This document shows positions 1,498 to 28,119 of a stretch of DNA of 31,908 bases, piece by piece. A program made the translations under genes and the position numbers. Source of the stretch: a virus; IMG/VR virus record IMGVR_UViG_3300048023_000208, positions 1 to 31,908 of that record; one strand, given 5' to 3'. Under the pieces are notes generated by a model. That model searched no databases. It was not told the DNA's origin and saw only the letters and a list, made by a program, of their open reading frames with translations. How positions within the stretch are numbered: the stretch's first letter is position 1; each line of letters opens with the position of its first letter.

Positions 1498-3549
1498 TTA
1501 TCCGAAGGACGCTGTATTGCTTATGTTTCTATCTAGTTCTTGTTGTGTGCTAATGTCTTTACCTACAACGAATGCCTTTACAGGTCTGGCTTGTTGACCA
1601 GCTACCGTAGTGGCTAGCTGACTTTGTGCAGAAGCCCCTACTACGTTGAAGTCTGGGGCTTGTATTGATGCTCCGCCACCTGCGCCTCCTGCACCTCCAC
1701 CACCTCCGATTGCTGATGGAACAAACTGCTGTCTGCTTATAGCTGCTGCTGTTGCTAATCCTGATGCCAAAACAATACCATATGCAATCTTGGATAATGG
1801 AAGTGCTGCTATTCCAAGAAACTTCTCAGGACCAGCAAGAACAGCTTCTCTAGCCCTACTTGCACTTATGAATGCAGTTATTATAGCTTCCCCCATAGCG
1901 ACAGCTTTTTGTATCTTAAACTGTTTTTCTGCAATCTTATCTCTTTTTCTAGCTAAGTTTTCTTCGTTAGCTGATATTTGATTATTTAAAGCGTCTCTTT
2001 GTTTTACAGTTAATTTTTCATTATCCAACCTTTTTCTTAGTTGATTATTTATAAGAACAGTCTTTCTCTCCTCCCTGCTTATTTCAGCCTCAAATAATAA
2101 GTCGCCTGCTTGTTTAAAAGTTTCATATGCACCTAAAAGGGAGTCTATAGCTCTTTTTAGTGCATCCGCTTGTTCTTTCTGAGTCTTTAAGAAGTCTTTT
2201 TGTTCATTGTTATTTTTCTTAGCTAATTTACGAAGACCCTTAAGGGCGTTAGTCGCATTAGAACCAAGCTCCTCTATTGCTGATTTTTGTAATTTAAGCT
2301 CATCTACACTTAAACCTTTAAACATTGCCTCTATGGTTAACATAAGTTCTTTGTCTGACATCTTATCAAAGAGACTTGAAAGGTCATTTACAAGTGGCTT
2401 TACCTTATCCCTAGCATCACTAGAACCATCCTCGATTGAGCCAAAAAAATCTATTATACCCTTTACTAAATCTGGAGAATTAAGTATAGAACTCATTTTA
2501 TTTATTTCTCCCGAAAGCTCATCGGCTTTCTTTGCAGCTTTAGTAGACTCTTTCATAAAAGGTCCTCTAATCATATCTCCAGCTTTACGAGCTAATTCAC
2601 CTACTTTATTAAAGAAGGTTTGAACAGTGCTGACCTCATCCTTCTGGAAAACGGTTGCTTTTGTTTTTTCTTTGAGCAGTTCTACCTCTTTATCAATTAG
2701 GTCCTGCATTAAAGACTTTATAAGAGCCTTCTTAGCCTCTCCTTTTATAAATGCGTCTAAATCATCAGTAGCCTTCTGAGTTAAGCCACCAAACTTATCT
2801 AGTTCTAAATTTAAGCTTTCAAATGTAGAATTTAACGTATCTACAATTTCTTGATTTTGTTCTGCGGATAAATTTAGTTTAGTTAATGCTCTTTGAGCAA
2901 AGGTTAACGCTGCGGCTTGCTCATTAAGTGTATTAGAGAATGACTTAACAGCTTCGTCTGCTTTAGACATACCGCCAAAAAGCTTCTGTACAGCAGCAAT
3001 AAGCACTTGGAATAATATGATTATTCCCAAAGGACCTTTTAATTGCCTACCTAGCAGCTTAAATGCCTTAGTCGTACCTCCAGTCTTCGCCATTAAGGTA
3101 ACCATAAGAGTAGCTAACTGAGACAAGTTGTTTGTTATCGCAGTAATACCAAACGGTAAATCAGATATAGTACGACCAAATTCAGTAAGCGTAGCACCAG
3201 CAAGACCAGCATTCGATATTTGGTCTTCATTGACTTTATTCTGAGTCATTGTAGTCTCAGTAAGACCACGCATTTTTACTTGAAGCTGCTCAATAGCTGC
3301 GGTTTGCCTTTTGTAATCTGCTGCTGTTTTAGCACTATTATCTCTTATTTCCTTAAGAGCCTTTATCTGTCTCCTGTAGTCTGCGACAGAACCTTTTAAT
3401 ATTGGGTCTTGCCTCTTTATCGCTTCCTGGAAAGCCTCAGCAGCTTTCTGCGCTCGCATAAACCCTCCGCCAAGCTGGTCAATTTGAACCTTAGCTTGTC
3501 CATCATCGACTTTAATTCTTACGATTATATCTTGTGTTTGTTTTGCCAT
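1498..3549 (-). CDS. Tail tape measure protein
   Basis: This 683-residue protein sets tail length in siphoviruses and is probably expelled during DNA injection. Features seen: an alanine- and glutamine-rich coiled-coil N-terminus (about 30-100), hydrophobic stretches near 150-195 (LSQLATLMVTLMAKTGG, LGIIILFQVLIAAVQ), a long charged helical middle, another coiled coil near 485-560, a hydrophobic segment near 560-620 and a glycine-rich linker before the conserved tail (PVKAFVVGKDISTQQELDRN). This organisation is typical of Bacteroidetes phage tape measures. The length is short, predicting a tail of roughly 100 nm by the usual 0.15 nm per residue rule. Its ATG overlaps the stop of the preceding small gene (TAATG), indicating translational coupling. 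Confidence 0.85.
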   Translation of the reverse strand: MAKQTQDIIVRIKVDDGQAKVQIDQLGGGFMRAQKAAEAFQEAIKRQDPILKGSVADYRRQIKALKEIRDNSAKTAADYKRQTAAIEQLQVKMRGLTETTMTQNKVNEDQISNAGLAGATLTEFGRTISDLPFGITAITNNLSQLATLMVTLMAKTGGTTKAFKLLGRQLKGPLGIIILFQVLIAAVQKLFGGMSKADEAVKSFSNTLNEQAAALTFAQRALTKLNLSAEQNQEIVDTLNSTFESLNLELDKFGGLTQKATDDLDAFIKGEAKKALIKSLMQDLIDKEVELLKEKTKATVFQKDEVSTVQTFFNKVGELARKAGDMIRGPFMKESTKAAKKADELSGEINKMSSILNSPDLVKGIIDFFGSIEDGSSDARDKVKPLVNDLSSLFDKMSDKELMLTIEAMFKGLSVDELKLQKSAIEELGSNATNALKGLRKLAKKNNNEQKDFLKTQKEQADALKRAIDSLLGAYETFKQAGDLLFEAEISREERKTVLINNQLRKRLDNEKLTVKQRDALNNQISANEENLARKRDKIAEKQFKIQKAVAMGEAIITAFISASRAREAVLAGPEKFLGIAALPLSKIAYGIVLASGLATAAAISRQQFVPSAIGGGGGAGGAGGGASIQAPDFNVVGASAQSQLATTVAGQQARPVKAFVVGKDISTQQELDRNISNTASFG

Positions 3550-7383: not shown

Positions 7384-7895
7384 TATTGTCTGCTTATGTT
7401 TTCGTTTAACATATTTCTAATATCTTCTGCGTAAGCCTCACTAAGAGACTTTGTTATTATGTCTGCTATGTTTATATATGATATTCCAACGTAGTTAGAA
7501 CCTAAATATCCTTTTCTGCCTATACTTCTAGCTATATTAAAAGCTGCTCTGTTTATATAACCATCTGTTTTTGGTAAAAACCTTCCGTTTTTATTCCTTA
7601 ATGTAAAACTTGACTTCTTCTTTATCCACAAAGCTATACTCTGGTACGGAGGTCTAGGACCGTTGTAACCTAAATCTACAGAGCCTGAATAAGCAGAGGT
7701 TGAAAATACATCAACCCCATCCCCACTCAAGTTATAATCGAATGTATCAACAAGTGATGGTGGTTCACTACCCACCACCTTATCCTGACTTCTTAGAGTC
7801 TCCTGTAACTCAGGAATAATAACATCCCTAGCGAGTTGTTCAAGGACTTCTTCTACCCTAGCGAATCTACCTGTAAGTGGACTTCTAGCTGCCAT
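7383..7895 (-). CDS. Putative tail completion protein (HK97 gp10-like position and size)
   Basis: About 170 residues, starting MAARSPLTGRFARVEEVLEQ. I place the start at the ATG at 7893-7895, which overlaps the upstream stop as TAATG; a TTG two codons upstream is possible but less likely. The protein has a basic N-terminus, a Pro/Tyr-rich centre (GYNGPRPPYQSIALWI) and a helical C-terminus. Size, charge and position between the chaperone cistrons and large tail proteins resemble HK97 gp10-like tail completion proteins, but similarity is weak by eye. Function is inferred from context. Confidence 0.5.
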   Translation of the reverse strand: MAARSPLTGRFARVEEVLEQLARDVIIPELQETLRSQDKVVGSEPPSLVDTFDYNLSGDGVDVFSTSAYSGSVDLGYNGPRPPYQSIALWIKKKSSFTLRNKNGRFLPKTDGYINRAAFNIARSIGRKGYLGSNYVGISYINIADIITKSLSEAYAEDIRNMLNENISRQ

Positions 7896-8356
7896 TAGCA
7901 AATAGTTACTTCGTTATTAGGGAATGATATAACAATGTCTATACCCCATCCAGCAAGCTGATTCTCAAATCTATCTAAGAATGGCTGTGCTGTAAGGTCT
8001 GATTCTATTTGGAACAAGTCCTCATAGCCCTGTCCCCTTCTCAGGTCTGCCACTAAAATGTTGGCTTCCGCCAACAGAGTGTTTAGGATATCCTGTAGGT
8101 TGTCATTACCGTAAAAGTCATCTGTCATTTCTGAGTCCCTGTTGTCGTCTACAATATCCAATAATAGCAGATTAATCGTCACCTCCAGCTTATATTCCTG
8201 AAACGACACATTTCCCATATTGATGTGTGCAATAGGAAATATATCTGTTTTATTCAGGTCAACACTGAACAGGTCTCCAAACGATACTGTTTGTATGTTA
8301 GGGGACTGTCTGAGCTTGTCCTTTATCTTATCTAATACTTCGTATACTGCTCTCAT
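7895..8356 (-). CDS. Minor tail or tail-completion protein, unknown
   Basis: A 153-residue protein starting MRAVYEVLDKIKDKLRQS. Strand-rich segments (FPIAHINMGNVSFQEYKLEV, then TINLLLLDIVDD) and a C-terminal strand (GIDIVISFPNNEV) suggest a small alpha/beta structural protein like the head-to-tail or tail-terminator proteins in this position in other siphoviruses. Its ATG (8354-8356) overlaps the TGA that ends the -1 frame extension of the tail chaperone (8353-8355), forming ATGA. That overlap is independent support that the -1 frame extension is real. The exact role cannot be assigned. Confidence 0.5.
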   Translation of the reverse strand: MRAVYEVLDKIKDKLRQSPNIQTVSFGDLFSVDLNKTDIFPIAHINMGNVSFQEYKLEVTINLLLLDIVDDNRDSEMTDDFYGNDNLQDILNTLLAEANILVADLRRGQGYEDLFQIESDLTAQPFLDRFENQLAGWGIDIVISFPNNEVTIC

Positions 8357-8613
8357 CGCTTACTCATTCTTTCTATTCGCATTCTTTCTAATTCGTTCTT
8401 TTCCTTTTCAAACTCCATCCACATTAAGCACTTACCTAGATTGGTTTTTGTAACCTCTCCAAACTTAAGGACATCTCCTCCAGCGAGTGCATATATTGAT
8501 TGATACCATCCCCATTTGCTTCCGAAGGATGCTTCTGCTGACGTAGGTCCTTCTGAACCTCCTCCTGTAAAGAGTGAAGGGTAGTTCTCAATAATTCTTT
8601 CCCTAAACTGTAA
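8353..8613 (-). CDS. -1 frame extension of the tail chaperone (T-like part of a G-T fusion)
   Basis: Reading in the -1 frame from the nine-T run gives 86 codons ending at TGA 8353-8355, overlapping the next gene's ATG. The translated segment contains KWGWYQSIYALAGGDVLKF and EVTKTNLGKCLMWMEFEKEK, which resembles the C-terminal chaperone segment of Bacteroidetes phages much better than the zero frame does. It has no start of its own in a sensible place, so it should be expressed by frameshifting, giving a fusion of about 258 residues. The alternative is a one-base homopolymer error: ten T's would make a single uninterrupted gene. Confidence 0.7.
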   Translation of the reverse strand, partial: LQFRERIIENYPSLFTGGGSEGPTSAEASFGSKWGWYQSIYALAGGDVLKFGEVTKTNLGKCLMWMEFEKEKNELERMRIERMSKR

Positions 8614-9128
8614 AAAAAAACCATAGCACCTGTAGCAACCGTCATTGGAGCGTCCTTCATTATATCTGCATACTTAGAAGAACCCTTATATTCCTCTATC
8701 TCGTAGAAATCTTTGTTTCCTCCGATTATAGGTCTGTACATAACTGCAAGTGCTTTGTGCATTTGCTCCCAGTCCGATATATAGCTTTCTAGGTCTACAT
8801 ACTCACCTAAAGTCATTTCGCTGAGGTTAGGCATAAAACCAAACTCAACCGTTTTACCGCTTGGGTCTGTCATAGTAAATCTACGTTGGAGCTTATCTTC
8901 CCTAGACATCATACTTATTATATGCTCTACTATAAAGTCTAGTTCTGTAATAGGCATTTTATTTGCCTCACTAAGTTCAAGCCCACAGAATATTTGTAAC
9001 ACCTTCAATCGATGAAAATCGACATCTATGTCTTCGTTGTCTTGTAACAACTTAACATACCTCTGATACTTGTGTAGCTGAATGTTTTCTTTTACTGAGG
9101 GGACTTTAATCTGAAATTCTTTAGTCAT
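8436..9128 (-). CDS. Tail assembly chaperone, zero-frame product (G-like)
   Basis: The zero-frame protein starting MTKEFQIKVPSVKEN is about 230 residues. A GTG 21 bases upstream is in frame, but the ATG at 9126-9128 sits behind the leader AGTTATATATAT, also found before the gene at 30386, so I prefer it. Content is mostly helical and acidic, as expected for a G-type chaperone that binds the tape measure protein. After the nine-T run at 8612-8620 the zero frame gives 59 more residues that look less protein-like than the -1 frame. Known biology: siphoviruses commonly make G and G-T chaperones by a -1 frameshift upstream of the tape measure gene. A promoter-like sequence lies about 50 bases upstream. 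Confidence 0.65.
   Translation of the reverse strand: MTKEFQIKVPSVKENIQLHKYQRYVKLLQDNEDIDVDFHRLKVLQIFCGLELSEANKMPITELDFIVEHIISMMSREDKLQRRFTMTDPSGKTVEFGFMPNLSEMTLGEYVDLESYISDWEQMHKALAVMYRPIIGGNKDFYEIEEYKGSSKYADIMKDAPMTVATGAMVFFYSLGKELLRTTLHSLQEEVQKDLRQQKHPSEANGDGINQYMHSLEEMSLSLERLQKPI
8613..8619 (-). other. Slippery heptamer T TTT TTT for -1 frameshifting
   Basis: Within a nine-T run (8612-8620 on the minus strand), the zero-frame codons are GTT TTT TTT TAC, giving a heptamer T TTT TTT in exactly the X XXY YYZ phase. Both tRNAs can re-pair perfectly after slipping back one base. Only a weak downstream stem (AGGG with CCCT) was noticed. Confidence 0.65.
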
Positions 9129-9176
9129 ATATATATAACTTAGAATCACTTAATGTGTACCACAATACATTTGTTA

Positions 9177-9211
9177 CAAATATAACAAAATAAATGTGTC
9201 TGAATATACAA
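9177..9211 (-). promoter_or_regulatory. Possible promoter for the tail operon
   Basis: TATATTTG on the minus strand (9177-9184) matches the Bacteroidetes -7 box. The nearest TTG (9209-9211) is 24 bases upstream, longer than usual. The predicted start would give a leader of about 40 bases before the chaperone ATG at 9128. The -7 box overlaps an 11-base palindrome, TTTGTTACAAA (9171-9181), which could be an operator. Confidence 0.4.
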
Positions 9212-9246
9212 CAAAAACCATATGAAAACAGTTACTTATATGTCGA

Positions 9247-9290
9247 GTGTCGTGGATGCCTTATAAAAAGGCAGACACGTAAACATCCAC
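9247..9290. other. Three interlocking inverted repeats (pseudoknot-capable element)
   Basis: Three perfect helices are packed into 44 bases: GTGTC (9247-9251) with GACAC (9274-9278), GTGGAT (9252-9257) with ATCCAC (9285-9290), and GCCTT (9258-9262) with AAGGC (9268-9272). On the plus strand the 5' halves are contiguous without linkers, and the first two helices cross, as in a pseudoknot. It lies just upstream of the possible tail-operon promoter. It could fold in either strand or act as a DNA recognition site. Confidence 0.5.
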
Positions 9291-9309
9291 TAGCAAGATA
9301 TTATAAACC

Positions 9310-9501
9310 TTACAATATCTTTCTATTATAAAACATATATAATATAAGTACCATATAAGCGGGGAAACGGGGGAGGTATGTTCTTTTGTCAAGTATTATA
9401 TATAATATATATTCGGGAGTGCCTGTCGCACCCCCTTCATTTCCGCAGATTCCGCAGGTTTCCCTAAACATCCAATCTTCTACAGAGACTTGCATATCCA
9501 T
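9310..9501 (-). CDS. Doubtful small ORF with a CxxC pair
   Basis: A 63-codon frame starting MDMQVSVEDWMFRETCGICG. The CGICG pair could be half of a zinc site, but the rest (repeated Tyr/Ile/Leu) reflects AT-rich palindromic DNA rather than a recognisable protein. A GTG at 9546 would extend it. It lacks coupling to either neighbour and overlaps the hairpin at 9415-9435. I keep it only as a possible gene; the region may instead be non-coding. Confidence 0.25.
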   Translation of the reverse strand: MDMQVSVEDWMFRETCGICGNEGGATGTPEYILYIILDKRTYLPRFPAYMVLILYMFYNRKIL

Positions 9502-9580
9502 TTCGATTTCGGTTGATTTGATTAAACGTGGGGTCTTAATATACACTCACTCCGTTTTACGTTACTTTTTCTAAATTAGC

Positions 9581-9739
9581 TTATAGGGCTTCAGGTTTAT
9601 TCGTTGAAAGCATATATTCAACGTTCTTCAGGTTGTGACCCAAAGTTAGCACTTCGGTCTCCAGGTCTTCAGGTGGTACTCTGTAGATATATGCTGTGTT
9701 AGTGCCTGTGCTGTAGTCTAGAATGTGTAAATAGTGCAT
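9581..9739 (-). CDS. Small protein, unknown (52 aa)
   Basis: A 52-codon frame from the ATG at 9737-9739 to TAA at 9581-9583. The protein (MHYLHILDYSTGTNTAYIYR, then a segment with VPPEDLETEVLTLGHNLKNV) has a strand-strand-helix pattern and normal amino acid composition, ending near EYMLSTNKPEAL. It resembles short soluble proteins frequent in the accessory regions of Bacteroidetes phages, but I cannot name a function. It sits just downstream of the hairpin that follows the 9802-10035 gene. Confidence 0.55.
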   Translation of the reverse strand: MHYLHILDYSTGTNTAYIYRVPPEDLETEVLTLGHNLKNVEYMLSTNKPEAL

Positions 9740-9755
9740 AATTGAAAGGAAAGAA

Positions 9756-9789
9756 GAGGCGGCCTAATCTAAAACACCAGGACCGCCTC
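9756..9789 (-). terminator. GC-rich hairpin, probable terminator
   Basis: GAGGCGG and CCGCCTC form a perfect 7-bp stem (9756-9762 with 9783-9789), possibly continued inward by CC/GG with a bulge. The tail is pyrimidine-rich (TTCTTTCC) rather than a clean U run. It sits 13 bases after the stop of the 9802-10035 gene, so partial termination is plausible. Confidence 0.5.
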
Positions 9790-9801
9790 AGAATTAATGT
9801 G

Positions 9802-24377: not shown

Positions 24378-25631
24378 TTAACTTGTTAATGCTGTTAGTT
24401 CTGCTGGTGTTAATGCGGTGTTGTAAATTTTATAATCCTTTATCTTTCCGTGAAAAATGTTACTTACTAATGCGTGATTACCAAAGCTAATTTTACTTAA
24501 ATCATCTCCTATGACATTACTAATTGTATCAACATCTATTTGTGTTCCGTTTATATATAAATAACCATTTGACGCATTAAAAGAAGCTGCAACTTTATTA
24601 GTTTGAGTAGTATCTGTATTTGGTGCTGCAATACTAAAACCTGTTGAGCCGAGAGAGGAAATTGTAAACGTAGATATTTGATTACCAGTTAACTGTAATA
24701 CAAACCTATCTGTACCACTCCCATCGTTTATAGTAATTGACTTGGTTGCACTATCATTCGCAAGTGATTCTACTTCTAAATAAAAAGCCATTCCTTGTCT
24801 ATTAAACAAACTTGTAAGCATATTATCTTGCACTAAAGTTTCCCCACTCCTTGTTACAGCACTTCCTTGTGTTGGTATATACGAAGTAGCGTATTCTGCA
24901 TCGCCACCGCTTCCTGAATCTTCAACTTGCATACCGAAAACGTACATTGCACCATTACCTGTACCTGCGTATGTTGAACCTGAATCGGCATCCATTAAAT
25001 TAACACCAAATACACCTACTCCATCAGCATTAGCAGTTGCAGTTGCAGATACTCTATACCAACCGTTACCGTAATTTTCAATAGTACCATCAGAACCAGT
25101 TGCAGTACCGTTTGATAAATTAAAACGAACCCTTGTTGTTGTAAATTTCGATGTAAAAAGTAAATACATAAAATCTACGTCAGAATTTTCAACTTGTTTT
25201 ACAAAAGCAGAGAAAGCATATTGCGTTCCATTAACGACAGTTGGGCGAACATCCACCCTGTGTTGTCCGTTTGTTGTATTGTCTGTTACTTTATATGCAC
25301 CTGCAATTCCATCAGGTTTGTTAATAGAGCTGTCTAAAGAAACAGTAACGTTAGTTGCATTCCATTCAGTACCATCTTCGCTGTAATCTGCTATATTTCT
25401 TCTAAAAGGTTCAAGTAGCAAATGCCCTTTAGTGTTGTTTAGAAAGTCAATTCTTGGCTTGTCTGTGCCTACCGTTTCGATTAAACCTTGCTTGTTTACC
25501 CTTGTTGCGCTTGATGCTCTGTCAAAGTCAAAAGGTAAGGGTTTGTAGTTGTCGTTTTCGGAATTAAACGCAAGTAGTTTCTCTGTCTTTTGCGCCCAAC
25601 TTCCGTTTCCTAAATTAAATGTATTTGCCAT
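24378..25631 (-). CDS. Lectin-like fibre protein 3, shortened C-terminus
   Basis: A 417-residue paralogue of the two genes upstream. The shared N-terminal signature is DFDRASSATRVNKQGLIETV with PRIDF and HLLLEPFRRNI. The middle and C-terminal parts are beta-rich, with a concanavalin A-like/LamG pattern near 290-410 (NGYLYINGTQIDVDTI, ISFGNHALVSNIFHGKIKDY). It ends ALTPAELTALTS, lacking the roughly 15 residues present at the end of both paralogues (SF-EMA-type tail). It likely binds carbohydrate on the host surface (inference). A homing endonuclease gene starts 34 bases downstream. Confidence 0.65.
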   Translation of the reverse strand: MANTFNLGNGSWAQKTEKLLAFNSENDNYKPLPFDFDRASSATRVNKQGLIETVGTDKPRIDFLNNTKGHLLLEPFRRNIADYSEDGTEWNATNVTVSLDSSINKPDGIAGAYKVTDNTTNGQHRVDVRPTVVNGTQYAFSAFVKQVENSDVDFMYLLFTSKFTTTRVRFNLSNGTATGSDGTIENYGNGWYRVSATATANADGVGVFGVNLMDADSGSTYAGTGNGAMYVFGMQVEDSGSGGDAEYATSYIPTQGSAVTRSGETLVQDNMLTSLFNRQGMAFYLEVESLANDSATKSITINDGSGTDRFVLQLTGNQISTFTISSLGSTGFSIAAPNTDTTQTNKVAASFNASNGYLYINGTQIDVDTISNVIGDDLSKISFGNHALVSNIFHGKIKDYKIYNTALTPAELTALTS

Positions 25632-26953
25632 TATTCTATAATATATAATTGTTGTGTAGCCATTTCGTTAAAACTCTTATAACTCGTTAGTGTTTCTAAT
25701 TCGTCTTGCGTTAATGCTTCTTTGAAAAACATTGTTTGGTATACTTTAGCTTGAAACTTTAAACCGTTTCCTTGGTCAGCATACCTTATACTTTCCATTT
25801 GTGTAGTAAAATTAACTGTTCCACCTGTATCAATATCATCTGCAAGTAACCCATCTTTAAACAATACAAAGTTGTCAGTTTCGTAGCTTCCTGCAATTTT
25901 TAACCTTATGTTTTTTGGTGTAGGTGTGTTGCAAAAACCAACACCTGAACCTCCCGAAAACACTTGAAATTGTGCTTCACCACTTATAAAGTTTATGAAT
26001 ACTCTATTATCAAGTATTTCTTCTGCATCTGGGTCAGATATTGAAAACTGAAAATAATCAGAAGAAGTAGTATCGTATGGTATTTCTAAATCTATAAACA
26101 ACGTACCTTCGTTTTGACTGCCTATTATGTCTTCTGCACCACTTGCTATTTGAGCATTATCTACTGCTCGTGTTGTAATAGCACCTACTGTTGTGGTAGG
26201 TATAAAACTGCTTACATAATTGCCAATTTCTATTTGAAAACCCCATATAAGCGCACTTTCCCCGTTTACCCCTGTATTAATAGCATCTTTTGTACACAAG
26301 TGAAACTTAAAAATATTAAAAGTTGCTGTATTCAAAATAGTAGCACCTTTGGATATTCTGTACCACCCGTTACCATAGTATTCTATTTTAGCAGGTACGT
26401 CTGTTCCTGTTTCATCTTCTATTGAACCTGTATCTAAATCAAAAATTACATTTTGTGTAGTGTCAGAAAAATGCGATAATCCTACATAACGTGCAGTATC
26501 TTTTTTGACAAATACACTCCAAACATAAGTAGTTGTAGTTGAAGGTATCGATATTTGCGCCCATTCAATTCTTGGTTGATTGGTGCTTGTTGCTGTAAGT
26601 TTTTTTATTCCCGATATACCTCCGTCAGGTGCTATAACATTTGTAACGTCAGTTTTTGTTGCTTCAGGGTCGGCAAAATTACTCCACCCCTCTGTATCTG
26701 TTATTCTGTTAGTCCTTGTCGGCTCTAAAAGTAAATGTGGGTCAGGTTGTACTACTCCGTTTATAAAGTTATAGTTAAGTCTTGGTACGTTAGCAGGTAT
26801 GGTTTCTATAAGACCATCTTTGTTTACTCGTGTACCATTAGTAGCACCTGTATAGGCAAAGTCCCCTGTGCTTGTATTAGGCACAACAGAAAATAGTGTA
26901 TTTACTCCTACTCCACTTGGTATTTGCGCTAAAGATGCTTTGTCGTATATCAT
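25631..26953 (-). CDS. Lectin-like fibre protein 2 (440 aa)
   Basis: Middle member of three paralogous fibre genes. The N-terminal module contains TRVNKDGLIETIPANVPRLN and HLLLEPTRTNRITD, followed by a carbohydrate-binding-like beta domain and a C-terminal concanavalin A-like region (NFVLFKDGLLADDIDTGG). It ends ALTQDELETLTSYKSFNEMA plus a short Tyr/Ile tail shared with fibre 1. No catalytic residues typical of a depolymerase are apparent. Start and stop overlap both neighbouring fibre genes by one to four bases, so the three are co-translated. Confidence 0.65.
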   Translation of the reverse strand: MIYDKASLAQIPSGVGVNTLFSVVPNTSTGDFAYTGATNGTRVNKDGLIETIPANVPRLNYNFINGVVQPDPHLLLEPTRTNRITDTEGWSNFADPEATKTDVTNVIAPDGGISGIKKLTATSTNQPRIEWAQISIPSTTTTYVWSVFVKKDTARYVGLSHFSDTTQNVIFDLDTGSIEDETGTDVPAKIEYYGNGWYRISKGATILNTATFNIFKFHLCTKDAINTGVNGESALIWGFQIEIGNYVSSFIPTTTVGAITTRAVDNAQIASGAEDIIGSQNEGTLFIDLEIPYDTTSSDYFQFSISDPDAEEILDNRVFINFISGEAQFQVFSGGSGVGFCNTPTPKNIRLKIAGSYETDNFVLFKDGLLADDIDTGGTVNFTTQMESIRYADQGNGLKFQAKVYQTMFFKEALTQDELETLTSYKSFNEMATQQLYIIE

Positions 26954-28119
26954 TCTAAAGTGTATTCTAAATCAGTAGCCATTTGTGTAAAGCTGACCCA
27001 ACTTGTTAAACTTTCTAACTCTGCATCTGTTAATGCTTCTTTAAATACTGCAAGTTCTTTTGTTTTACCGTAAAAGTCGTCTGCAGTTGATGCGCTTTCA
27101 AAACGAAGTTGGTTTAACGTATTACTAAATGTAAAGGTTTGACCCATTGTAATAACTTCAGTTCCATTTACAAAAACAGAACTTTCGCCTGATTTGTATT
27201 TAAAAGCAACTTTGGTAAATTCAGTAATGTCTCTTACTGTAATATTCCTAAATATTTCAGCTACATCATTTGCCCTTACCTGAAAATTTAATTGGTTTGT
27301 ATTGTTTTTAAAACGAAGCGTAACTGCATTATCATTTGAGCTATCACTTATTGAAATAACTCTGTTCGTTAAGTCATCAGCAAGTGCAGCAATTTCGGCA
27401 TACAAAACCCCTTCACTATTATTAAACAAGTCAGCATTACCGCTATTGTTTGCTACATCAGCCGAGCGTGTTACGGTTGAACCCTCTGTTGGTATGTACG
27501 AAGTGCTATAAGATAAATTTTCAATTTGAGCATTTGTAACAGAACCGCTAACAGTACAGGTTAAAGTTCCGCTTGTTGGTGTAAAAGTTACGCTTACTCT
27601 CTCATTAACACCCGCACCAGTTAGTGTGCCTGTATGTGTGCCACTAAATGTAATTGTTCCTGTTCCGTAAAAAGAAACACTAAAACTTGTTGCAGTTGTA
27701 GTAACGTCTTGTGTAGATAAATTAGCTGAATTTAAAAATAAATTAGTACTCTGTGGCTCTAATAACCAACTTCCAAAACCACTTGTGTAATCTATTCTTG
27801 GAATACCACTTGCAACTTCTTCTATAAGTCCTTTCTCGTTTACTCTTGTAGCAATAGACGCTCTCGTAAAGTCAAAGTCGCCATCGCCATCAGTAGGTAC
27901 AGGAGAATTTATAGAACCATTATCGTAAGCAGTAGGAGTTAAGACAATACTTGCCTTGTTAGATATATCCCTTAATATCTCGTCTGTGCCATCAGAGTTT
28001 TCGTAATTATCAGAACGCTTATACAGTTCGTTTGTTGCATCAGCATCAAAATAAATGTTACCCCAACCTAAAGGTTTAGGGTTTCCCCACTCGCTTCTGT
28101 GATATATTTCGTTTGGCAT
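26950..28119 (-). CDS. Lectin-like fibre protein 1 (389 aa)
   Basis: First of the three fibre paralogues. The N-terminus (MPNEIYHRSEWGNPKPLGWG, then NIYFDADATNELYKRS) differs from the other two and may be the virion-attachment part. It is followed by the shared block FDFTRASIATRVNEKGLIEE and SWLLEPQSTNLF, then a concanavalin A-like C-terminus (VAFKYKSGESSVFVNGTEV) ending ALTDAELESLTSWVSFTQMA. The unique start suggests this protein anchors the fibre while all three carry receptor-binding domains (inference). Confidence 0.65.
   Translation of the reverse strand: MPNEIYHRSEWGNPKPLGWGNIYFDADATNELYKRSDNYENSDGTDEILRDISNKASIVLTPTAYDNGSINSPVPTDGDGDFDFTRASIATRVNEKGLIEEVASGIPRIDYTSGFGSWLLEPQSTNLFLNSANLSTQDVTTTATSFSVSFYGTGTITFSGTHTGTLTGAGVNERVSVTFTPTSGTLTCTVSGSVTNAQIENLSYSTSYIPTEGSTVTRSADVANNSGNADLFNNSEGVLYAEIAALADDLTNRVISISDSSNDNAVTLRFKNNTNQLNFQVRANDVAEIFRNITVRDITEFTKVAFKYKSGESSVFVNGTEVITMGQTFTFSNTLNQLRFESASTADDFYGKTKELAVFKEALTDAELESLTSWVSFTQMATDLEYTLE

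Follow-up and report, generated by a model that had tools for sequence, protein, structure and literature searches.

How can one phage gene specify two proteins that share a beginning and differ in their ends, and which machine would carry expression from one reading frame into the other? Both questions are raised by a run of nine T's in a 31,908-base virus record (IMG/VR IMGVR_UViG_3300048023_000208), which was analyzed over its whole length and is called the window below. The main genes of the window lie on the minus strand. A preliminary description had placed a programmed −1 frameshift at this run, within a tail chaperone gene upstream of the tape measure gene.

Two reading frames at the T9 run

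The plus strand carries nine A's at positions 8612–8620, hence nine T's on the coding minus strand, and the zero frame reads ...ATG GTT TTT TTT TAC AGT... and stays open to a TAG at 8438–8436 (Table 1). Translation of the 230-aa product probably begins at ATG 9128, with GTG 9149, farther upstream, as an alternative. Past the T9, the −1 frame reads ...FFLQFRERIIENYPSLFTGGG...KWGWYQSIYALAGGD... and closes at TGA 8355–8353; a product fusing the zero-frame and −1-frame parts would have 258 aa. The elements first reported at the junction, namely T TTT TTT in phase, an open −1 frame and an ATGA overlap, are all seen in a direct reading of the sequence, and an ATGA-type overlap lies at the corresponding place in 57 of the 109 clusters of relatives introduced below. 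A zero-frame tail is also present as reported, although at 58 codons, with 176 nt of dual coding, it is longer than had been implied. In the entire window, this T9 is the only A or T run of at least nine.

On the 5′ side of the chaperone-like gene, about 650 bases at 9150–9800 are AT-rich and without a convincing long gene. This region is possibly the promoter region for the structural operon.

Table 1. Features of the chaperone-like locus and the tape measure candidate, in window coordinates.
Feature	Position	Strand	Description
T9 slip site	8612..8620	−	zero-frame codons GTT TTT TTT TAC, which hold an in-phase T TTT TTT (direct sequence reading)
Zero-frame ORF, putative G-like product	8436..9128	−	230 aa; ATG 9128, TAG 8438–8436
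−1-frame segment, putative T-like domain	8353..8611	−	about 85 codons past the run, TGA 8355–8353; conserved KWGWYQSIYALA motif
Dual-coded stretch	8436..8611	−	zero-frame tail (58 codons) over the −1-frame domain; 176 nt
ATGA overlap	8353..8356	−	−1-frame stop with the ATG (8356) of the next gene
Next gene	7895..8356	−	153 aa; matches phrog_30964, a family of unknown function (E 1e-6)
Tape measure protein candidate	1498..3549	−	683 aa; four genes from the chaperone-like gene

Relatives of the locus and coding in both frames

Relatives were gathered by querying with the zero-frame protein and with aligned fused proteins. The matches include viral contigs in their hundreds, a single bacterial record (a Bacteroidetes assembly, L151) and the cultured Nonlabens phages P12024L and P12024S. 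A starting set of 269 loci came from HMMs that modelled the N-terminal part and the T-like domain and were blind to the junction, and in each of these loci the longest homopolymer at the junction is T9 or T10. The full set comprises 429 related loci with 355 distinct sequences, which fall into 109 clusters at 80% amino acid identity. The family is one of small marine phages that probably infect Bacteroidota.

The C-terminal T-like domain is encoded in the −1 frame at 427 of the 429 loci, including those of P12024L and P12024S. Relatives lacking the −1-frame segment, which the preliminary description named as evidence against a frameshift, are thus not what these loci show. The conserved −1 frame starts directly at the T run, and the KWGWYQSIYALA segment recurs with the run across relatives. 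This joint recurrence of run, −1 frame and KWGWYQSIYALA is far beyond chance, and we consider it highly probable that expression passes into the −1 frame at this run. A simple continuous gene with ten T's, named at the outset as another observation that would speak against a frameshift, fails across hundreds of loci; the single exception among the 429 is L078, where a T10 leaves the two parts in frame. Its continuous fused ORF (478–1239) is either a naturally fused variant or the product of faulty assembly. A second locus, L118, looks in-frame only on account of an indel farther upstream that disrupts its first part.

A cultured counterpart in the set is the pair gp40/gp41 of Nonlabens phage P12024L (Inhavirus; phrog_32199 and phrog_38404), which is homologous and shares both the T9 and the −1 offset. 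It differs in being annotated as two hypothetical proteins and in having a much shorter zero-frame tail past the run. In P12024L, the chaperone-like gene comes directly after the terminase.

Substitutions were compared in 123 disjoint sister pairs. Before the run they fall mostly at zero-frame third positions (4044/6617), and past the zero-frame stop the third positions of the −1 frame dominate (762/1177). Within the overlap the third positions of both frames are equally affected, with 1011 and 1017 of 2632 substitutions, and changes that are synonymous in both frames occur 3.1 times over expectation. Furthermore, the zero frame past the run is open for a median of 56 codons, compared with an expectation of roughly 11 (10.8) under constraint on the −1 frame alone, and this open tail is individually significant in 96% of clusters. 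Both the −1 segment and the overlapping zero-frame tail are under purifying selection. Constraint on both frames, together with openness beyond expectation, indicates that the zero-frame tail is real coding sequence, and the earlier suggestion that it might be an accidental product can be set aside. Judged by its codons, the gene reads as a G/G-T-like pair with an unusually long dual-coded overlap. Across the family, the coding zero-frame tail has about 50–90 codons and the overlap a median length of 179 nt; the average overlap in the SEA-PHAGES set used with PRFect is 26 nt (PMC10885494).

Length of the run and the probable agent of slippage

Over the 429 loci, the run is T9 in 318, T10 in 99 and T12 in 12, and it is never shorter than nine. 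In its common phase, NTT TTT TTT TNN, one T at each end of the run falls outside the heptamer. FF is nearly always preceded by V, L or I and followed by a codon that starts with T, for Y, W, C, L or F, and the protein sequence in this way accounts for part of the nine T's. In some lineages, however, the run has moved while its length stayed constant, as in CGC TTT TTT TTT CGG, GTC TTT TTT TTT CTG and CGG TTT TTT TTT GTT. These shifted-phase lineages encode R-FFF-R (L063), V-FFF-L (L227, L231) and R-FFF-V (L420, L432, L487 and others); all of them keep nine T's, and in none is the final Phe codon followed by a T. Lineages that lack the 3′ T have one more T on the 5′ side (Fisher p = 5e-4 for the 109 clusters at 80%, p = 0.028 with clustering at 70%), an association with few independent lineages behind it, and the opposite combination, T8, is absent from all 429 loci. 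Mapped on the tree, the family has undergone six phase changes and 20 run-state changes with the length always at least nine. The run thus has a feature expected of programmed transcriptional slippage sites, an A or T homopolymer of about nine or more whose length holds whatever the codon phase: it occurs as T9, T10 or T12 only, in two codon phases and with compensation.

Shorter T TTT TTC sites were sought by scanning for this site before TAY, where the change is synonymous in both frames, and were rejected: all 73 family members returned by the scan carry T10. An upper limit of ten T's was also rejected, as a scan for longer runs gave 12 family members with T12. There is accordingly no strict ceiling of ten, and the lower bound of nine stands.

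Long runs are depleted elsewhere in these genomes. Across 652 further ORFs of the contigs that carry the run, compared with synonymous shuffles, T runs of at least nine number 2 against 7.8 expected and A runs 9 against 52.8, and runs of at least ten are absent where about 20 would be expected. Baranov et al. used the same kind of depletion test as a sign of slippage-prone lengths (PMC1088944).

Stimulators of ribosomal frameshifting were searched for around the run. Folding windows gave no indication of RNA structure above background, with a mean z of −0.35 downstream and 0.14 upstream against −0.38 and −0.04 in far controls, and an Rfam search found no known RNA element. Strong SD-like matches upstream of the run are without excess (14% versus 35% in the background), and SD-like pairing about nine bases upstream rises mildly, to a mean of −2.4 versus −0.3 kcal/mol, within one standard deviation. 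An SD stimulator would be weak in any case, because the anti-SD of Bacteroidia ribosomes is occluded (PMC8710568). As stimulators are common but not obligatory, their absence lowers the standing of a −1 ribosomal event without eliminating it. Transcription termination at the T run was considered as well and rejected, since a terminator-like hairpin is absent nearby.

On balance, we lean towards transcriptional slippage by RNA polymerase. It fits better than ribosomal slippage because at least nine T's are invariant despite the moved position of the run, because structure and SD stimulators are lacking, and because long runs are depleted elsewhere. The RNA:DNA hybrid of RNA polymerase is 9–10 bp long. 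In the mechanism we propose, the host polymerase would slip at the T9, a run as long as this hybrid, and add one U in a fraction of transcripts. Transcripts with the additional U would lead into the −1 frame by ordinary translation, and those lacking one U would meet a stop within about five codons. One gene would in this way give two proteins with the first ~172 residues in common, namely a short zero-frame form of 230 aa and a minor long form of 258 aa in which a helical −1-frame domain replaces the zero-frame tail. We infer that both proteins are made.

Bacterial RNA polymerase is known to slip efficiently at nine A's or T's (PMC1088944; PMC5009743), with poly(T) preferred by the E. coli enzyme (PMC6260861), and cDNA clones from an A9 site in an insertion sequence carried A10 in 8 of 52 cases and A8 in 9 of 52 (PMC6211511). 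The run resembles transcriptional slippage sites such as those of Thermus dnaX (A9), Shigella mxiE and IS1447 (A9) in placing a homopolymer of nine or ten at the junction, in its conserved length and in dispensing with RNA structure; it differs in being a predicted site and in lying in a phage assembly gene. Counting against polymerase slippage, the G/G-T switches described in the literature consulted are ribosomal (PMC5009743). A tail chaperone expressed by transcriptional slippage was not found in the literature searched.

A classical −1 ribosomal frameshift is the main competitor, and we consider it substantially less probable than polymerase slippage. Here, tandem Phe-tRNAs would slip on U UUU UUU, much as in lambda G/G-T, with no special stimulator needed, and the T9 would represent the heptamer plus the amino acid constraint. 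Such slippage is fully possible because T TTT TTT stands in the right phase at every locus; seven T's would suffice for it, yet the run never drops below nine, even with flanking residues that do not force the length (R, V, L), and T TTT TTC, synonymous in both frames, never occurs alone. Ribosomal shifting is the route of known chaperones, but U_UUU_UUU shifts less than A_AAA_AAG in E. coli (PMC5009743). Low-level shifting of 6–7% has been measured in other phage tail chaperones (PMC3711429), and the weakly related chaperone of a Firmicutes phage, LfeSau, has a canonical A AAA AAC. The T run has neither a downstream structure nor an SD-like stimulator. Of the programmed frameshift first described, entry into the −1 frame is strongly supported by 427 of 429 loci, while the ribosome as its agent is put in question by a run of at least nine without a stimulator.

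Two further explanations fare worse. The −1-frame domain could be made alone by re-initiation, giving two separate proteins as in the P12024L gp40/gp41 annotation, where a −1-frame ATG overlaps the zero-frame stop (TAATG); this is very unlikely, as the −1-frame stretch leading from the run to the conserved domain core is free of ATG, GTG and TTG in 100 of the 109 clusters and −1-frame conservation begins right at the run. A sequencing or assembly error hiding one continuous ten-T ORF, as the T10 and continuous ORF of L078 might suggest, has a negligible chance and is, on comparative grounds, already refuted at the family level by the identical offset that many metagenomes and cultured phages share, at 427 of 429 loci, by T10 and T12 loci that keep the −1 arrangement, and by selection on the zero-frame tail.

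The putative tail chaperone and chaperone-like pairs in Flavobacteriia phages

The product is probably a tail assembly chaperone, a role suggested by the G/G-T architecture and accompanied by weak hints from the fold. Similar to lambda gpG/gpGT, the locus would encode two products with a common N-terminus, the longer one reached through the −1 frame and bearing a C-terminal T domain, and it lies upstream of the tape measure candidate on the same strand. At the coding level, it thus specifies the two products and the −1 entry that characterize the G/G-T class. It departs from lambda in its slip site, which is a T9–T12 homopolymer instead of GGGAAAG, and in not being adjacent to the tape measure candidate. 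A lambda-type chaperone pair typically sits between the major tail gene and the tape measure gene, immediately before the latter; the binding partner of G is the tape measure protein and that of T the tail tube protein. Xu, Hendrix and Duda are said to have described in 2004 a conserved G-T frameshift of dsDNA phages.

The tape measure candidate resembles gp087 of Cellulophaga phi10:1 (E 3e-6) and, weakly, PHG11b_40 of Flavobacterium 11b (E 2e-3), each of which comes directly after a chaperone-like pair in its own genome. With this candidate downstream, gene order lends some support to a tail role, although four genes lie in between. The candidate is thus downstream, as in the preliminary description, but it is not the adjacent gene. 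Elsewhere on the minus strand, three successive genes at 24378–28119 all match phrog_5939, a tail-protein family, and are apparently tandem paralogues. A large minus-strand ORF at 2–1465 is cut by the window edge and has head maturation protease and DNA methyltransferase family matches over the same N-terminal 200 residues.

Searches by sequence gave no match in Pfam, none in the PDB with a profile, and no similarity to annotated chaperones. All 37 of 37 diverse homologues match phrog_32199, a PHROG family of unknown function, and apart from families without an assigned function the PHROG search gave a few weak matches labelled 'tail protein'. The AlphaFold model of the zero-frame protein is confident (pLDDT 86.9) and has an alpha/beta domain followed by a long helix, residues 162–198, that spans the slip site, and the model of the −1 domain (pLDDT 79) is all-helical with three main helices. 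Viral Foldseek matches of the zero-frame model are mostly unnamed phage proteins. HK97 gp13 (PDB 2ob9) stands at rank 10 with the highest probability among the matches listed (0.20), a non-significant match (E 0.88, TM by target 0.34); together with two annotated chaperones it falls in a weak range of E 0.46–0.88. Further structural searches produced middling helical matches only. The chaperone identity given initially is thus consistent with the G/G-T architecture but finds no counterpart in an annotated family.

In several other Flavobacteriia phages, unrelated chaperone-like pairs with a different T-domain family join at A runs: an A9 in Flavobacterium 11b (L279, ~8610), an A8 in Cellulophaga phi10:1 (L278, ~8663), an A10 in phi17:1 (L498, ~1182) and an A9 in phi12:1 (L500, ~783). 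The close relatives phi12:1 and phi17:1 are one A apart, and the second frame is +1 in the former and −1 in the latter. In phi10:1, the first half of the pair is an ORF at L278 8303–8660 (record 36528–36885) that is absent from the annotation. A Lactobacillus phage chaperone weakly related to that of 11b has a plain A AAA AAC. Because it comes from a handful of genomes, the A-run pattern is a lead and not a result. That Bacteroidota phages generally make their tail chaperone pair by polymerase slippage at about nine A's or T's, in place of a ribosomal frameshift, is a speculative proposal that we put forward with considerable doubt.

If the polymerase, not the ribosome, sets the ratio of the two chaperones, one of the most widely conserved recoding events of phages would have passed to another machine in a large group of them. 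Annotation that models solely ribosomal heptamers would miss such genes. The family would also offer a natural system for understanding why nine is the threshold, with hundreds of sequences that keep the length and shift the position, and its long dual-frame coding stretch is a second unusual constraint.
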